Shown here: piece by piece, positions 13,984-50,276 of the stretch | How positions within the stretch are numbered: the stretch's first letter is position 1 | Layout: each line of letters opens with the position of its first letter | Source: Bacillota bacterium | GTDB taxonomy: Bacteria; Bacillota; Sulfobacillia; JAJYWN01; JAJZPE01 | Direction of reading: 5' to 3' | DNA length: 64,000 bases | Assembly: GCA_021787335.1 (NCBI GenBank) | Contig: JAJYMC010000014.1 | Span: 35,401-99,400 of the forward strand | The notes under the pieces: generated by a model | What the model was told of the DNA's origin: nothing | Databases searched by the model: none | What the model saw: the letters and a program-made list of their open reading frames with translations, nothing else | Program-made: the position numbers and the translations under genes

Positions 13984-14196
13984 TAGTTTTTGCACCTCCT
14001 TCCGTTGCGAAGTATTTACACAAAGGCGTATGTTTGCATTTCTCTGCCCTTTCCCCGAATCCTTCTGGGGTCGGAAAGTTCTTGGTCCCAATCGGGCTCT
14101 GGTCCACGGGGCACGCCTGGAGGGGCAGGAACGTCGCGGCAAGCGTTGAATAACTGCCGGGGCGTAGGCAACTAACTAATGTAAGGGGTTGAGGGT

Positions 14197-16716: not shown

Positions 16717-17424
16717 ATGGAACAAGTACTCTTGAACGCGTCTAAGCGCGACATCGGCAAGGGCAGCGCCCGCGCCATCCGGCGTGAAGGCTACGTCCCG
16801 GCGGTCCTCTATGGCAAGAACGTCGAGGCCGTCTCGGTCAAGGTCCCGGCGCGGGACTTCTCCCGGGTCATGACGGCCGGTCGTAACAGCATCATCAAGC
16901 TGGCCATCGCCGAGAAGGGCGGGGTCGACGAGCGGACCTGCATGGTCAAGGACATTCAGCAGGACCCGATCCGCGGCGATGTCATCCACGCCGACTTCCA
17001 TCAGATCAACCTGAAGGAGAAGCTGCGCGCGACCGTCGCGGTGCGCATCATCGGTGAGGACGTCGTAATCAAGGCCGGCGGCATCCTGCAGCATCTGCTG
17101 TGGGAGGTCGAGGTCGAGTGCCTCCCGGCCGAGATCCCGGACCATCTCACCGCCGACGTCAGCAACGTGCCGATCGGCGGGCATCTCTCGGTCAAGGACC
17201 TGAAGGTCCCGGCCGGGGTCGACCTGATCACCGATCAGGACGCCGCCATCGCCTCGGTCCTCGCGCCGAAGGCCGTCGAGGAAGAGGTCAAGCCGGCGGA
17301 GGGCGAGGCGGCCGCTGACGCGGCTCAGCCTGAAGTCATCGGTCGCGGTAAGCAGGAAGAGGAAGGCGCGGCCCCGGCTCCGGGCGCCAAAGAAGCCAAG
17401 GGCAAGGCCGAGAAGGAAAAGTAA
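16717..17424 (+). CDS. ctc: Large-subunit ribosomal protein bL25, CTC form
   Basis: A 235-aa bL25 of the long Ctc type (5S rRNA binding plus TL5-like C-terminal domain). N-terminal domain: KRDIGKGSARAIRREGYVPA, then VLYGKN. The C-terminal beta domain includes LKEKLRATVAVRIIGED, AGGILQHLLWEVEVECLPAE and VSNVPIGGHLSVKDLKVP. The final ~45 residues are Glu/Ala/Lys-rich and probably disordered. In B. subtilis ctc is a general-stress gene; here a good sigma-A-type promoter is seen and no sigma-B motif. ATG at 16717. Confidence 0.94.
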   Translation: MEQVLLNASKRDIGKGSARAIRREGYVPAVLYGKNVEAVSVKVPARDFSRVMTAGRNSIIKLAIAEKGGVDERTCMVKDIQQDPIRGDVIHADFHQINLKEKLRATVAVRIIGEDVVIKAGGILQHLLWEVEVECLPAEIPDHLTADVSNVPIGGHLSVKDLKVPAGVDLITDQDAAIASVLAPKAVEEEVKPAEGEAAADAAQPEVIGRGKQEEEGAAPAPGAKEAKGKAEKEK

Positions 17425-17442
17425 GCCGCAGGTGGAATGGTC

Positions 17443-29250: not shown

Positions 29251-29571
29251 GTGTTCTATCAGTCAGCGCGAGTCAAGTCCGTGGAGATGTCACCGGGGAT
29301 CGTCCGCCGGACCCTGGCCTGGGGGCAGGCGATGATGGGGGCGAGGTTCAGCTATACCGCCGGGGCGCTGACCGCGCCCCACGCGCACCCGCATGAGCAA
29401 TTCACCTACGTTCTCAGCGGGCACTGCCGCGTCCGCATCGGTGAAGAGGAGCGGGTCATCGGGCCCGGTGAGGGTTATCTCGTGCCGGGCGGGGTCACCC
29501 ACAGCCAGGAGGTCCAGGAAGCCGCCGAGACCATCGAACTGTGGAGCCCGCCCCGTCCGGAGTTTGAATGA
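29251..29571 (+). CDS. Small cupin-domain protein
   Basis: A 106-aa single-domain cupin. Metal-ligand motif 1 is HAHPHEQFTYVLSGHCRVRI (His, His and Glu), and motif 2 is PGGVTHSQEV (His). GEEERVIGPGEGYLVPGG is the intermotif strand region. The substrate cannot be told; small stand-alone cupins range from isomerases to binding proteins. GTG at 29251 with AAAGGGGG upstream. It is coupled to yabQ (4-bp gap) and followed by a strong terminator, so it is the last gene of the yabP-slt-yabQ unit. Confidence 0.85.
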   Translation: MFYQSARVKSVEMSPGIVRRTLAWGQAMMGARFSYTAGALTAPHAHPHEQFTYVLSGHCRVRIGEEERVIGPGEGYLVPGGVTHSQEVQEAAETIELWSPPRPEFE

Positions 29572-29581
29572 GGGATCGAGC

Positions 29582-29643
29582 GCACCCGGCTGGTTGCCGG
29601 GTGCTCGGGGGACCGGCGAGGGCCGGTCCCCTTCTCGTTTTTT
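29582..29643 (+). terminator. Double-hairpin terminator
   Basis: First stem GCACCCGGC (29582-29590) with GCCGGGTGC (29596-29604). Second stem GGGGACCGG (29608-29616) with CCGGTCCCC (29623-29631), followed by TTCTCGTTTTTT. Confidence 0.85.
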
Positions 29644-29704
29644 GCCGACCGGACCAACCCAGGAAGGAATTCTGTAAACCATGGCGAAAGGAATGACCTA
29701 CCCA

Positions 29705-29737
29705 GTTGTACACAGGTTGTACATAACTTGTGAATAA
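29705..29737 (+). repeat. Three helically phased 11-bp repeats with a DnaA-box match
   Basis: GTTGTACACAG, GTTGTACATAA and CTTGTGAATAA follow each other at exactly 11-bp steps (29705, 29716, 29727) in an AT-rich patch 40-70 bp before the HTH gene at 29776. The third unit contains, on the minus strand, TTATTCACA (29729-29737), a perfect DnaA box; the first contains TTGTACACA, one mismatch from it. Either a regulator-binding array for the gene downstream or a small DnaA-box cluster. Confidence 0.6.
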
Positions 29738-29775
29738 CACTTCTGGCCCGGGTGTTCCATGGAAGGAGAAGGCCC

Positions 29776-30027
29776 GTGCAGATAGAGATTCGTGGAGCCG
29801 AGCGCTTGAGTTTCCGTGAACGACAAGTGGTCTCGCTGCGCGAGATGGGCCACAACAACGCCGAGGTGGGTGTCCGCCTGGGATTGAGCCCGGCGACGGT
29901 GGCCACGCTCTACAACCGTGCCAGGAACAAGGGTTACCAGGTGGTCATCGTCCTCGGCGGGGACCCACTGAACCTCTTTGAGACGGATGAAACGGACGAG
30001 GGCGACCTGAAAGAACCGAAACAGTGA
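29776..30027 (+). CDS. Small helix-turn-helix protein (sigma region 4/LuxR-like)
   Basis: An 83-aa protein that is almost entirely one HTH: RLSFRERQVVSLREMGHNNA, then EVGVRLGLSPATVATLYNRA and RNKG. The pattern (F-R-E-R-Q-V-V-x-L, then L-G-L-S-x-x-T-V-x-x-L-x-x-R-A) is that of sigma-70 region 4 or GerE/LuxR output domains without any partner domain. The C-terminus is acidic (FETDETDEGDLKEPKQ). GTG at 29776 behind GGAAGGAGAAGGCCC. It is preceded by three phased repeats that could be its operator and sits just upstream of divIC. Target genes unknown. Confidence 0.82.
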   Translation: MQIEIRGAERLSFRERQVVSLREMGHNNAEVGVRLGLSPATVATLYNRARNKGYQVVIVLGGDPLNLFETDETDEGDLKEPKQ

Positions 30028-30080
30028 CCGTAAGCATCGACCGGCCGGTGGATTGACCGACCGGTCGCGCAGGAGGTAAC

Positions 30081-30473
30081 ATGAGCTACCCACTCAGCGA
30101 TGCCGGCCGCCCGCCGGTCATCGACCTCAGGACCAAGACAAAGCCCCGGCCGCGCAGGAGCGGTTTCCGGATCAGAGTGCGCTTCGGCCGTCTCCTGGTC
30201 GTGGCCTTTCTTCTTTACGGTGTCTCCGTGTTCGCCGGTCAGGAGGTCCGGGTCCACCGGCTGAAGGTCCAGGAAGCCGGGGTCCAGGCGCAGATCCGTC
30301 AACTCCAACAGGCCAATCAGGCCCTTCGCGAGCAGATCAAACAAGCCAACTCCGATGAGTACATCGAGAAGATTGCGCGTGAGCAGCTCGGGTTGGTCAA
30401 AGAGGGTGAAATACCCTATTTCAACGGTGTCCCAGGTGACCCGGGCCATCTGGAAAAAGGGCCGGGATACTGA
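30081..30473 (+). CDS. divIC: Septum formation initiator, DivIC/FtsB family
   Basis: A 130-aa bitopic cell-division protein: a basic cytoplasmic N-terminus (TKTKPRPRRSGFRIRVRFGR), one membrane segment (LLVVAFLLYGVSVFAG, ~44-59), then an extracytoplasmic coiled coil (VQAQIRQLQQANQALREQIK) ending in the conserved E-K-I-A-R-E-x-L-G-L-V motif followed by GEIPYF. DivIC acts with FtsL and DivIB at the septum, including the sporulation septum. Location before yabR matches B. subtilis. ATG at 30081 behind CAGGAGGTAAC. Confidence 0.92.
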   Translation: MSYPLSDAGRPPVIDLRTKTKPRPRRSGFRIRVRFGRLLVVAFLLYGVSVFAGQEVRVHRLKVQEAGVQAQIRQLQQANQALREQIKQANSDEYIEKIAREQLGLVKEGEIPYFNGVPGDPGHLEKGPGY

Positions 30474-38110: not shown

Positions 38111-39199
38111 GGCGCCCCCGGGCGGACGGCGCTCCTCGACGGTGGACGGGACCTGGAACCCGGCCGCGACGACCTCGGCGTAGTGGCGGACCTGGTTCCG
38201 GCCCATCTCCTTGGCGTACAGCACGGCCCTCCAGGCCCGCTCGAACAGCTCGTCGGCGGTCCGGCAGTCCTGCGGGAAGCAGGCAAGGCCCAGGCTGGCG
38301 GTGATGGGCGGGACGGTCCGACCATCGGCCCAGACGGCGTGGTCGGCGACCTTCTGGCGCAGCCGGCGGGCCAGGAAATGGGCCCCGGCCGTATCGGTCT
38401 CAGGGAGGATGAGGGCGAACTCCTCGCCGCCGCAACGGGCGATGAGGTCACAGGCGCGGACGCCGGCCTTGAGCACCGCGGCCACCTCAGCCAGGGTGCG
38501 GTCGCCGGACTCGCGTCCGTGGTCGCGGTTGACCGAGGAGAAGCGGTCGATGTCGACGACGATCAGGCTGAGGGGGTGATTATAGCGAAGGGCGCGGGCC
38601 ACTTCCTCGGCCAGGCGAACCTGGAAGAACCGGCGATTGTAGACCCCCGTCAGGCCGTCGGTCGTCGACTCGGCCAGGGCCACGTTGAGTTCGCCTTCGA
38701 GCCGGCGGTGGAGGTCACCGGAGAACCGGTCACGTTCGCGGAGCGACTCGACCAGCTCGTTGAAGCCGGCGACGAGGCCGCCGAAGTCGTCCGGGCCTTC
38801 CAGTCGAAGAGGTTCCGGCAAGTCACCCTTGGCGACGCGCCGGAGCACCTTCAGCAGACGGTCAGCGGGTTCCCTGACCTGCCGGTCGACGATGAACGTG
38901 GTCAGGGCGACGAGAATGGCCAGGCCGGTCAGAGCGAGGAGGAAGAGGCGGGTGCCGATGCCGGCCGTGGCTATGAGCCGGTCGTTCTCGGGGAGGGAGA
39001 CCAGGGCTCGTCCAAGCCCCGAGAGGCCAAAAATGACAAGTCCCGCCATGACGCCGGTGAAGACCAGCGCCAGCGGGAGCAAGAAGCGGGATCGCCACGA
39101 CAATCCCCTGAACAGCCGCACCCAATGCCACCGCTTTCTATGGACGCCCTTCCGCTTCAAGGTCTCGTTTTCAACGTCGGGGCCGAAAATCCTGCTCAC
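38102..39199 (-). CDS. Membrane HAMP-GGDEF diguanylate cyclase
   Basis: A 365-aa protein predicted to make cyclic di-GMP. Two membrane segments (FLLPLALVFTGVMAGLVIFG ~40-59 and LFLLALTGLAILVALTTFIV ~85-104) bracket a very short outside loop of about 25 residues, so there is no large sensor domain. A HAMP linker follows (RQVREPADRLLKVLRRVAKG), then the GGDEF domain from ~180: DGLTGVYNRRFFQVRLAEEV, VVDIDRFSSVNRDHG, and the active-site motif RCGGEEFALI (GGEEF, catalytically competent form). No RxxD inhibitory site is obvious. GTG at 39199, weak ribosome site. It is convergent with ftsH and close behind the exchanger gene. Confidence 0.92.
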   Translation of the reverse strand: MSRIFGPDVENETLKRKGVHRKRWHWVRLFRGLSWRSRFLLPLALVFTGVMAGLVIFGLSGLGRALVSLPENDRLIATAGIGTRLFLLALTGLAILVALTTFIVDRQVREPADRLLKVLRRVAKGDLPEPLRLEGPDDFGGLVAGFNELVESLRERDRFSGDLHRRLEGELNVALAESTTDGLTGVYNRRFFQVRLAEEVARALRYNHPLSLIVVDIDRFSSVNRDHGRESGDRTLAEVAAVLKAGVRACDLIARCGGEEFALILPETDTAGAHFLARRLRQKVADHAVWADGRTVPPITASLGLACFPQDCRTADELFERAWRAVLYAKEMGRNQVRHYAEVVAAGFQVPSTVEERRPPGGAED

Positions 39200-48945: not shown

Positions 48946-50246
48946 ACCTGCAACGCTGCCAGTACCAGGCCGTCGGTGAGACGGTCTACGCCGCCGAGTT
49001 GGACGACGGGCTCCACGTCTACGTCATGCCCAAGCCGGGCTACAACAAGAAGTACGTCACCTTCGCCACCCACTATGGTTCGGTCGACAGCCACTTCAAG
49101 GCCCCGGGCGACCCCGCGCCGGTCAACGTCCCCGACGGCATCGCCCACTTCCTCGAGCACAAGATGTTCGAGAAGGAAGAGGGCAACGTGTTCGACCGGT
49201 TCGCCGCCCTCGGGGCGATGAGCAACGCCTTCACGACCTACACCTCCACCAGCTATCTGTGCTCGGCCACGGAGAACTTCCCGGATTGCCTGGACCTCCT
49301 GGTCGACATGGTCACGAGGCCGTACTTCACCGATGAGAGCGTGGCCAAGGAGAAGGGGATCATCGGCCAGGAGATCCGGATGTATGAGGACAGCCCGCGC
49401 TGGCGGGTGCGCGACAACCTCCTGACCGCCCTGTACCAGGCCCACCCGGTACGGATCAACATCGCCGGGACCGTCGAGTCCATCCAGGACATCACGAAGG
49501 AACTCCTCTACCGGTGCTACCGGACCTTTTACCGGCCCGAGAACATGAACCTCTTCGTCACCGGGGAGATCGAGCCAGGCTGGGCCATCGACCGTGTCGC
49601 CGCCCGGATGCCGGCCCAGGGCGGCCCGCGCGGGGACATCGAGAGGCTCTTCCCGGATGAACCGTCGACCATCAACCGACCGACCGTGGACGAGGCCATG
49701 GCCGTGGCCGTGCCCCTGGTCCTGGTCGGCTTCAAGGACCGGGACGTCGGCTACGACGGGCCCCGCCTGCTCGATAAGATCGTCTACATGGACATCCTCC
49801 TCGAAGTCCTCCTGGGCAGGAGTTCGCCGATCTATGACTCGCTCTACCAGGACGGGCTCATCGACGAGCGCTTCGCCGCCGACTATGACGGGGAGCGAGA
49901 CTATGGCTACGTGGCCATCGGCGGGGAGTCGCGCGACCCGGACCTCCTCCGCGAGCGGTTGGCCGCCGCCTTCGCCGAGGCCCTGGACCGGGGGGTCGAC
50001 CCGGAGGCCTTCGAGCGGGTCCGGCGCAAGCTGACCGGCGGCTTCGTGGCCGGGTTCAACTCGCCCGAGTACGCCGCGCACAACTTCACCCTCTACCGGT
50101 TCCGCGACGTCGACATCTTCGACTACCTGACCGCCCTCGGGCGGGCCACCCCCGAGGGGGCCGACGAACGCCTGCGGGCCATCTTCGACCCCTCGGCCAT
50201 GGCCGCCTCGGTCATCCGCCCCGGAGGAATCCCCGGCCGGGCGTAG
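48942..50246 (+). CDS. M16-family zinc peptidase (YmfH-like)
   Basis: A 434-aa M16 peptidase with the inverted zinc motif HFLEH in DGIAHFLEHKMFEKEEGNVF (~64-83), followed by NAFTTYTSTSYLCSATENFP and the downstream Glu region KEKGIIGQEIRMYEDSPRWR. The C-terminal half contains SSPIYDSLYQDGLIDERFAA. In Bacillus YmfH is the catalytic partner of YmfF. GTG at 48942 overlaps the stop of the upstream non-catalytic subunit. The ymf region of Bacillus also carries short-chain dehydrogenases and pgsA; none of these is nearby here, so the pair stands alone beside other peptidases. Confidence 0.92.
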   Translation: MNLQRCQYQAVGETVYAAELDDGLHVYVMPKPGYNKKYVTFATHYGSVDSHFKAPGDPAPVNVPDGIAHFLEHKMFEKEEGNVFDRFAALGAMSNAFTTYTSTSYLCSATENFPDCLDLLVDMVTRPYFTDESVAKEKGIIGQEIRMYEDSPRWRVRDNLLTALYQAHPVRINIAGTVESIQDITKELLYRCYRTFYRPENMNLFVTGEIEPGWAIDRVAARMPAQGGPRGDIERLFPDEPSTINRPTVDEAMAVAVPLVLVGFKDRDVGYDGPRLLDKIVYMDILLEVLLGRSSPIYDSLYQDGLIDERFAADYDGERDYGYVAIGGESRDPDLLRERLAAAFAEALDRGVDPEAFERVRRKLTGGFVAGFNSPEYAAHNFTLYRFRDVDIFDYLTALGRATPEGADERLRAIFDPSAMAASVIRPGGIPGRA

Positions 50247-50276
50247 AAGATAAGGGCGGAAAGGACGTGCTGCCCT

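Follow-up and report, generated by a model that had tools for sequence, protein, structure and literature searches.

An 11-bp repeat array with embedded DnaA-like boxes is conserved beside a sigma-H-type promoter upstream of a small helix-turn-helix gene and divIC

The analyzed window, a 64-kb stretch of DNA from a draft bacterial genome, contains a gene for a small helix-turn-helix (HTH) protein followed by divIC, which encodes a septum formation initiator. Both genes had been noticed in a sequence-only reading of the window, which also described three head-to-tail 11-bp repeats upstream of the HTH gene, the last of them with a perfect DnaA box on its minus strand. The repeats were present exactly as described, and the two genes and the box were confirmed. 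The features of the locus are listed below.

29607–29643, plus strand: intrinsic-terminator-like hairpin (11 pairs, 9 of them G-C) with a T-run, 3′ of the cupin gene
29663–29688, plus strand: sigma-H-type promoter, −35 GAAGGAATT, AGGA-N17-GAA, −10 GGCGAAA
29705–29715, 29716–29726 and 29727–29737: the 11-bp repeats of the sequence-only reading, GTTGTACACAG, GTTGTACATAA and CTTGTGAATAA
29706–29714, plus strand: array copy 1, TTGTACACA, in the TTGTNNANA register; doubles as a forward TTRTNCACA DnaA-like box
29717–29725, plus strand: array copy 2, TTGTACATA, 11 bp past copy 1
29728–29736, plus strand: array copy 3, TTGTGAATA, 11 bp past copy 2
29729–29737, minus strand: consensus DnaA box TTATTCACA, beginning 23 bp after the forward box
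29776–30027, plus strand: HTH gene, 83 aa, GTG start, identified by Pfam search and orthologs
30081–30473, plus strand: divIC, beginning 53 bp past the HTH stop codon
30493–30521: sigma-A-type promoter, perfect TTGACA-17-TATAAT, preceding the S1-domain gene

The HTH gene and divIC probably form one transcription unit, since they are flanked by the hairpin of the cupin gene, which probably separates them from yabQ and the cupin gene, and by the sigma-A-type promoter of the S1-domain gene. No terminator-like site was found on the plus strand between the two genes. A weak sigma-70-like match (9/12) lies directly before divIC (30053–30082), so divIC may have a promoter of its own and its co-transcription with the HTH gene is only presumed. 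When the window proteins were compared with the HTH loci by tblastn, yabP and divIC were each found at 65 of 94 loci, yabQ at 36 and the S1 gene near the HTH gene at 60 (twice on the other strand), with divIC at a median position of +354; these numbers are probably underestimates, because some loci are truncated and divIC is divergent. The small cupin gene, which in the window lies between yabQ and the HTH gene (29251–29571), was detected by the same approach at only three of the 94 loci.

In the HTH protein, beta strands flank an HTH of the sigma-70 region 4/GerE type, and the tail is acidic. It exceeded the Pfam cut-offs of Sigma70_r4_2 (30 bits; cut-off 25.7), GerE (25.3; 23.5) and Sigma70_r4 (24.6; 24.1). 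The structure model (mean pLDDT 86.9) shows a strand-HTH-strand arrangement and a low-confidence tail, and the flanking strands recur across the orthologs together with a C-terminal GD.L.LF segment. The nearest folds retrieved by Foldseek were an archaeal factor (8hno), GerE (1fse), NarL (1je8) and sigma region 4. NF003054 (putative transcriptional regulator), which we take to be a Tfx-like model, scored 16.9 bits against a cut-off of 239, and the protein was not assigned to the Tfx/EnfR family. Its HTH core is thus similar in fold to GerE/LuxR-type proteins, sigma-70 region 4 and archaeal Tfx/EnfR (8hno and 8hnp would be EnfR, judging by their titles), but it differs from all of these in its own flanking strands and GD.L.LF segment, and neither a Foldseek match at E ≤ 0.001 nor an NCBIfam model above its cut-off was obtained. 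Members of the Tfx family are described as combining a basic HTH with an acidic C-terminal part (PMC10570040), as in the HTH protein.

At E ≤ 0.001 the protein was found in 54 of 61 genomes, including that of the window (the match in genome G028 is weak and that in G025 is in two pieces), and at 1e-10 in 155 of the 398 genomes sampled from the phylum. The 64 HTH loci include those of Moorella, Desulfofundulus, Carboxydothermus and Syntrophomonas. A tight tie between the HTH gene and Spo0A was not supported: seven of the 20 genomes listed among 53 Spo0A-less ones carry the HTH gene, which is therefore not strictly a sporulation gene.

Merging of identical 200-bp upstream regions reduced 94 sequences to 89; with 30 phylum loci the set comprised 107, and these were further clustered to 73. 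The phylum loci represent 30 of the 155 matching genomes, so this sample leans to the best-scoring orthologs. The evidence is sequence comparison throughout, and many of the records are draft metagenome assemblies.

In the TTGTNNANA register the three copies in the window start at 29706, 29717 and 29728. Both copy 1 (plus strand, 29706–29714; TTGTACACA) and the minus strand of 29718–29726 (TTATGTACA) have one mismatch to TTATNCACA. Within the 64-kb window, two in-phase copies of TGTNNANA occur at the array site only, and none of 100 dinucleotide-shuffled sequences contained any.

One half of the outcome that the sequence-only reading had named as speaking against it, loss of the repeats where relatives retain the HTH gene, is not what the comparison revealed. 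A tandem array with an 11-bp period and the core nTGTNNANA, defined as a chain with at least two exact copies, is retained across the phylum, in 88 of the 107 distinct HTH upstreams (mean in shuffled sequences, 0.05 loci), among them that of Moorella thermoacetica (locus L052). Most arrays have three to four copies and the longest has seven; a strict chain of three copies is present in 56 of the 107 upstreams. Several of the 19 upstreams that failed the array definition contain weaker TGT repeats. A spacing of exactly 11 bp was shared by 83 TTGT pairs in the 89 distinct upstreams (shuffles, 0.3); harmonics appeared at 22 bp (46 pairs) and 33 bp (15 pairs), and every other distance between 5 and 35 bp had three pairs or fewer. 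Related sequences do not yield independent counts, a dependence that clustering to 73 reduces without removing; in these non-redundant clusters TGTNNANA pairs numbered 94 at 11 bp versus 3 at 12 bp, and 49 of the 73 hold one or more strict pairs 11 bp apart.

Individual positions of the unit are conserved to different degrees. In copies that the search had not selected, each placed one repeat 5′ of a match, T2 (80%), G3 (79%), T4 (85%), A7 (70%) and A9 (79%) predominate, with C6 at 58% and C8 at only 39%. Positions 5–6 depend on the place of the copy in the array: the last copies favour GG (60 and 61 of 84) and the third-from-last CC or AC.

The strict three-copy pattern was found in 66 of 121 related genomes, in the newly added of which matches were taken genome-wide irrespective of the position of the HTH gene, and in none of the 121 when the pattern was read backward. 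When two mismatches were allowed, 38 of 61 genomes contained the pattern (backward control: one match, in G007). In 36 of these 38 it sits at the HTH gene, and none of the seven genomes without the HTH gene has it. Matches in four of the 36 are confined to the strand opposite to the HTH gene, because the array units are near-palindromic. The array is a site conserved with the HTH gene and nearly exclusive to it, with few matches elsewhere.

The window shows no enrichment of DnaA-box-like 9-mers: allowing one mismatch at most, 7 were counted against an expected 6.6. The genome-wide count of boxes proposed in the sequence-only reading likewise gave no enrichment (24 TTRTNCACA; 32 in the backward control), whereas close pairs are rare: two TTRTNCACA within 30 bp occur in the draft genome of the window only at the dnaA promoter and at the array site. 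The clustering of boxes at the array site, not their number, is what is unusual in this genome.

The base composition of the boxes was compared between the 73 non-redundant HTH-upstream clusters and 38 oriC regions (one of 30 dnaA loci, L142, without a DnaA signature, was left out and nine were added). Forward boxes at the HTH gene have a TTGT:TTAT ratio of 54:6, compared with 12:57 at dnaA promoters (Fisher's test, 1e-17), while the TTAT:TTGT ratio of the reverse boxes (44:12) is indistinguishable from that of oriC (76:27; p = 0.57). The box type of the lineage's own oriC was therefore not found at every copy: forward copies deviate from it and reverse boxes conform. Box pairs at the HTH gene are always convergent (47 forward-reverse, no reverse-forward), and at dnaA promoters the ratio is 20 to 1. 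This order is no general rule of oriC, as dnaA-dnaN regions have no forward-reverse and three reverse-forward pairs. Across the 107 upstreams, 44 forward-reverse pairs have the 23-bp spacing seen in the window.

TTRTNCACA is absent from the last 200 bp of 20 of the 107 HTH upstreams, several of which hold near-miss boxes (e.g. L008, L010 and L073). Nevertheless, 17 of the 20 keep TGT pairs at 11 bp, and TGT[ACG] pairs at this distance number 37 in the 20 upstreams versus 0.4 in shuffles. Since the phase is kept without TTRTNCACA, DnaA boxes alone do not carry it. DnaA-box-like TGT pairs are also found upstream of dnaA (10 at 11 bp and 10 at 12 bp in 29 genomes), so the 11-bp phase alone cannot exclude DnaA. 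A simple account would be that G3 of the forward copies is set by the TGT rule of the array, while the equivalent base of the reverse boxes is free and shows the preference of DnaA. The array thus shows the signatures of two sequence codes that overlap, an 11-bp TGT..A.A direct repeat and DnaA boxes.

The sigma-H-type promoter, absent from the sequence-only reading, is the best functional clue at the locus. The sigma-H consensus is RNAGGAWWW at −35 and RNNGAATWW at −10 (PMC8510167), and the window site fits it except for GAAA in place of GAAT. A conserved element at fixed spacing, reading (G)CAGGA...GAA, lies 5′ of the array in many relatives: AGGA-N17-GAA was counted 72 times in the 107 upstreams (1.5 in shuffles) and is present in 40 of the 73 non-redundant clusters, or 48 when N17 or N18 is allowed. 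Among 70 arrays with the element near, 59 begin 5–23 bp 3′ of GAA, a distance which, from sigma-H spacing, we take to be the expected region of the transcription start. With such a promoter just 5′, the array therefore covers the expected start or follows it closely, a position that would suit repression by a bound protein. The GAA-array distance varies, and no fixed helical phase between array and promoter was found, the distance modulo 11 covering all residues unevenly (1–12 each).

The SigH model TIGR02859 scored above its cut-off in 57 of the 61 genomes, including that of the window (contig C17). Two of the four genomes without SigH, G018 and G053 (loci L010 and L006), still have the promoter element, which could reflect a gap in their assemblies or the use of a different sigma factor. 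Because of these two genomes and of 18 of the 88 arrays that have no AGGA-N17..19-GAA nearby, the use of sigma-H is not certain. Family f8 (L014, L028 and L029) has no AGGA...GAA and carries a TATAAT about 80 bp before the HTH gene, and its array is kept; the array is therefore not merely part of a sigma-H promoter. This family represents a natural promoter swap, and one of its genomes, G009, has SigH and no Spo0A_C match. In total, five sigma-H-like sites were counted in the 64-kb window (0.47 expected; none of 100 shuffles reached five). The four further sites are:

14040–14065, minus strand: sigma-H-like site near the start of a minus-strand ORF
17412–17437, plus strand: sigma-H-like site preceding a peptidyl-tRNA hydrolase-like gene (named by eye)
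39170–39195, minus strand: sigma-H-like site near the start of a minus-strand ORF
50223–50248, plus strand: sigma-H-like site preceding a flavin-reductase-like gene (named by eye)

We tentatively favour, at a little less than an even chance, a composite operator on the sigma-H-type promoter, in which the HTH protein would regulate its own gene through the phased repeats and DnaA would read the embedded boxes. The array would lie over or just downstream of the start of this promoter, which would drive the HTH gene and probably divIC. The HTH protein would bind the 11-bp nTGTNNANA repeat cooperatively, its subunits aligned along one face of the DNA with one for each helical turn, and would thereby repress its own promoter. 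DnaA would bind the convergent boxes in the same array and so tie HTH-divIC expression to the replication state. The HTH protein is the best candidate for binding the direct repeat, as DnaA is for the embedded boxes, and a link to division is plausible. We infer the identity of the binders, repression, transcription by sigma-H, joint transcription of the two genes and the biological purpose from the comparisons described above. Of the two alternatives in the sequence-only reading, autoregulatory operator and DnaA site, the results favour the combination over either alone, as the unit has box features embedded in it without being a simple DnaA box.

A site for DnaA alone is possible but somewhat unlikely. 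Head-to-tail low-affinity forward TTGT boxes and a final high-affinity reverse box would form an orisome-like half-array that represses or activates the promoter. Exact TTATNCACA is present in 54 of the 88 arrays and is one mismatch away in 30 more, and the box order is convergent, as at dnaA promoters. The high-affinity DnaA boxes of both M. tuberculosis and S. coelicolor are given as TTGTCCACA, and the low-affinity box arrays of E. coli oriC are described as having high-affinity anchors alongside (PMC4285127). DnaA of T. maritima is reported to prefer a 2-bp gap between boxes of the same direction (PMC10316083), which is the gap between 9-mers placed at 11 bp. However, the forward copies are TTGT in a ratio of 54:6 though oriC of the same lineages is mostly TTAT, 5′ copies such as TTGTACTAA and TTGTAGTAA are poor DnaA boxes and yet keep phase and TTGT, and same-orientation TTRTNCACA at dnaA promoters are more often 12 bp than 11 bp apart (8 versus 2).

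An operator of the HTH protein alone, whose likeness to DnaA boxes would be a by-product of the HTH preference (a TTGT-NN-AYAA near-palindrome) and of the dyad symmetry of the array, would agree with the persistence of the 11-bp phase in upstreams without DnaA boxes, with the sigma-region-4/GerE-like fold and with the placement of the relaxed pattern (at the HTH gene in 36 of 38 genomes, in none of seven HTH-less relatives). We consider it unlikely, as the bias at positions 5–6 (GG in the last copy, CC or AC in the third-from-last) is not expected of a protein that simply binds direct repeats and the base ratio of the reverse boxes equals that of oriC. It is improbable that the array serves a third factor, either another regulator or a 5′ UTR structure formed by the RNA. 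Located downstream of the −10 element, the array is probably part of the transcript, and by inspection base pairing between its forward and reverse copies is conceivable in RNA; however, copies vary without compensation (forward TTGTACACA occurs with last copies TTGTGGATA or TTGTGAATA), no Rfam family reached its gathering score in 29500–30100, where matches remained far below these scores, and a strict 11-bp phase over two to seven copies better fits DNA binding.

The composite operator that we favour can be compared with several known systems. In B. subtilis, sda and other genes have several DnaA boxes upstream, and DnaA is a transcription factor there (PMC4447404); divIC is absent as a word from the main text of this genome-wide study. 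The locus resembles such DnaA-regulated promoters in having several DnaA boxes before a small regulatory gene, but differs in the strict 11-bp TGT repeat with G3, the sigma-H-type promoter and the HTH gene. It shares the RNAGGAWWW...RNNGAATWW organization of sigma-H (Spo0H) promoters, e.g. that of spoVS (PMC8510167). Unlike these, the window promoter has GAAA at −10 and an operator array directly after it. The low-affinity boxes of E. coli oriC are separated by 2-bp gaps. Both the HTH array and E. coli oriC (PMC4285127) line up weak boxes that end in a strong one, but the HTH array is located at a promoter away from oriC and its weak boxes have a single TTGT core in common.

Sda was identified in 11 of the 398 phylum genomes, none of which carries the HTH gene; this mutual absence may reflect phylogeny only, the 11 genomes spanning four families. 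It is a speculative and decidedly unlikely possibility that recognition of a DnaA-box-like word by the small HTH protein is no accident and that the protein acts as a lineage-specific competitor or partner of DnaA at its own sigma-H-type promoter, and in some species at oriC, in the manner of an Sda-like checkpoint of non-Bacilli spore formers that would join replication state, entry into sporulation and septum formation. To our knowledge, the coupling of sporulation and replication in Sda-less spore formers is largely open. No paper treating divIC, yabQ and helix-turn-helix together, or DnaA, sda and DnaA boxes in Clostridium sporulation, was found in the open-licence PMC literature. The HTH regulator is highly conserved and has no curated name in the Pfam and NCBIfam libraries searched, its control logic can be read from sequence, and in spore formers without Sda the array would connect sigma-H and DnaA to a division gene in a concrete way that can be tested.

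A regulon of further HTH-bound arrays was not supported, off-site three-copy matches being few. Five were looked at, in G001 (oriC), G044, the window genome, G025 and G033. Binding of the HTH protein at oriC in general was not supported either, as the strict three-copy array is present in one of 38 oriC regions, that of G001. In this sister species, four TGT repeats 11 bp apart, three of them strict, lie just after dnaA in the dnaA-dnaN region (L185), and the same region of the window genome (L148, 1790–1826) contains a degenerate version of them. An off-site 11-bp TGT array of one genus lies near a thiolase-like ORF (L194, ~1322, G044:C17; also G449:C77). The sole other strict three-copy match of the window genome, TGTTGAAAGGATGTCGAGAGGATGTCGAAA (L195, 1243–1272; G000:C58:84242–84271), is located just before a beta-lactamase-like ORF (named by eye), and its TGTCGA words look, by eye, more like Spo0A boxes than like the HTH array. 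The matches in G025 and G033 have no clear link to DnaA or the HTH protein. Two HTH upstreams, L068 and L163, carry a different many-copy 11-bp tandem repeat (CTTGGGGTAAC and CTTGGGATAAG) nearer the HTH gene, and in L068 the usual TTGT repeats lie further upstream than this variant.
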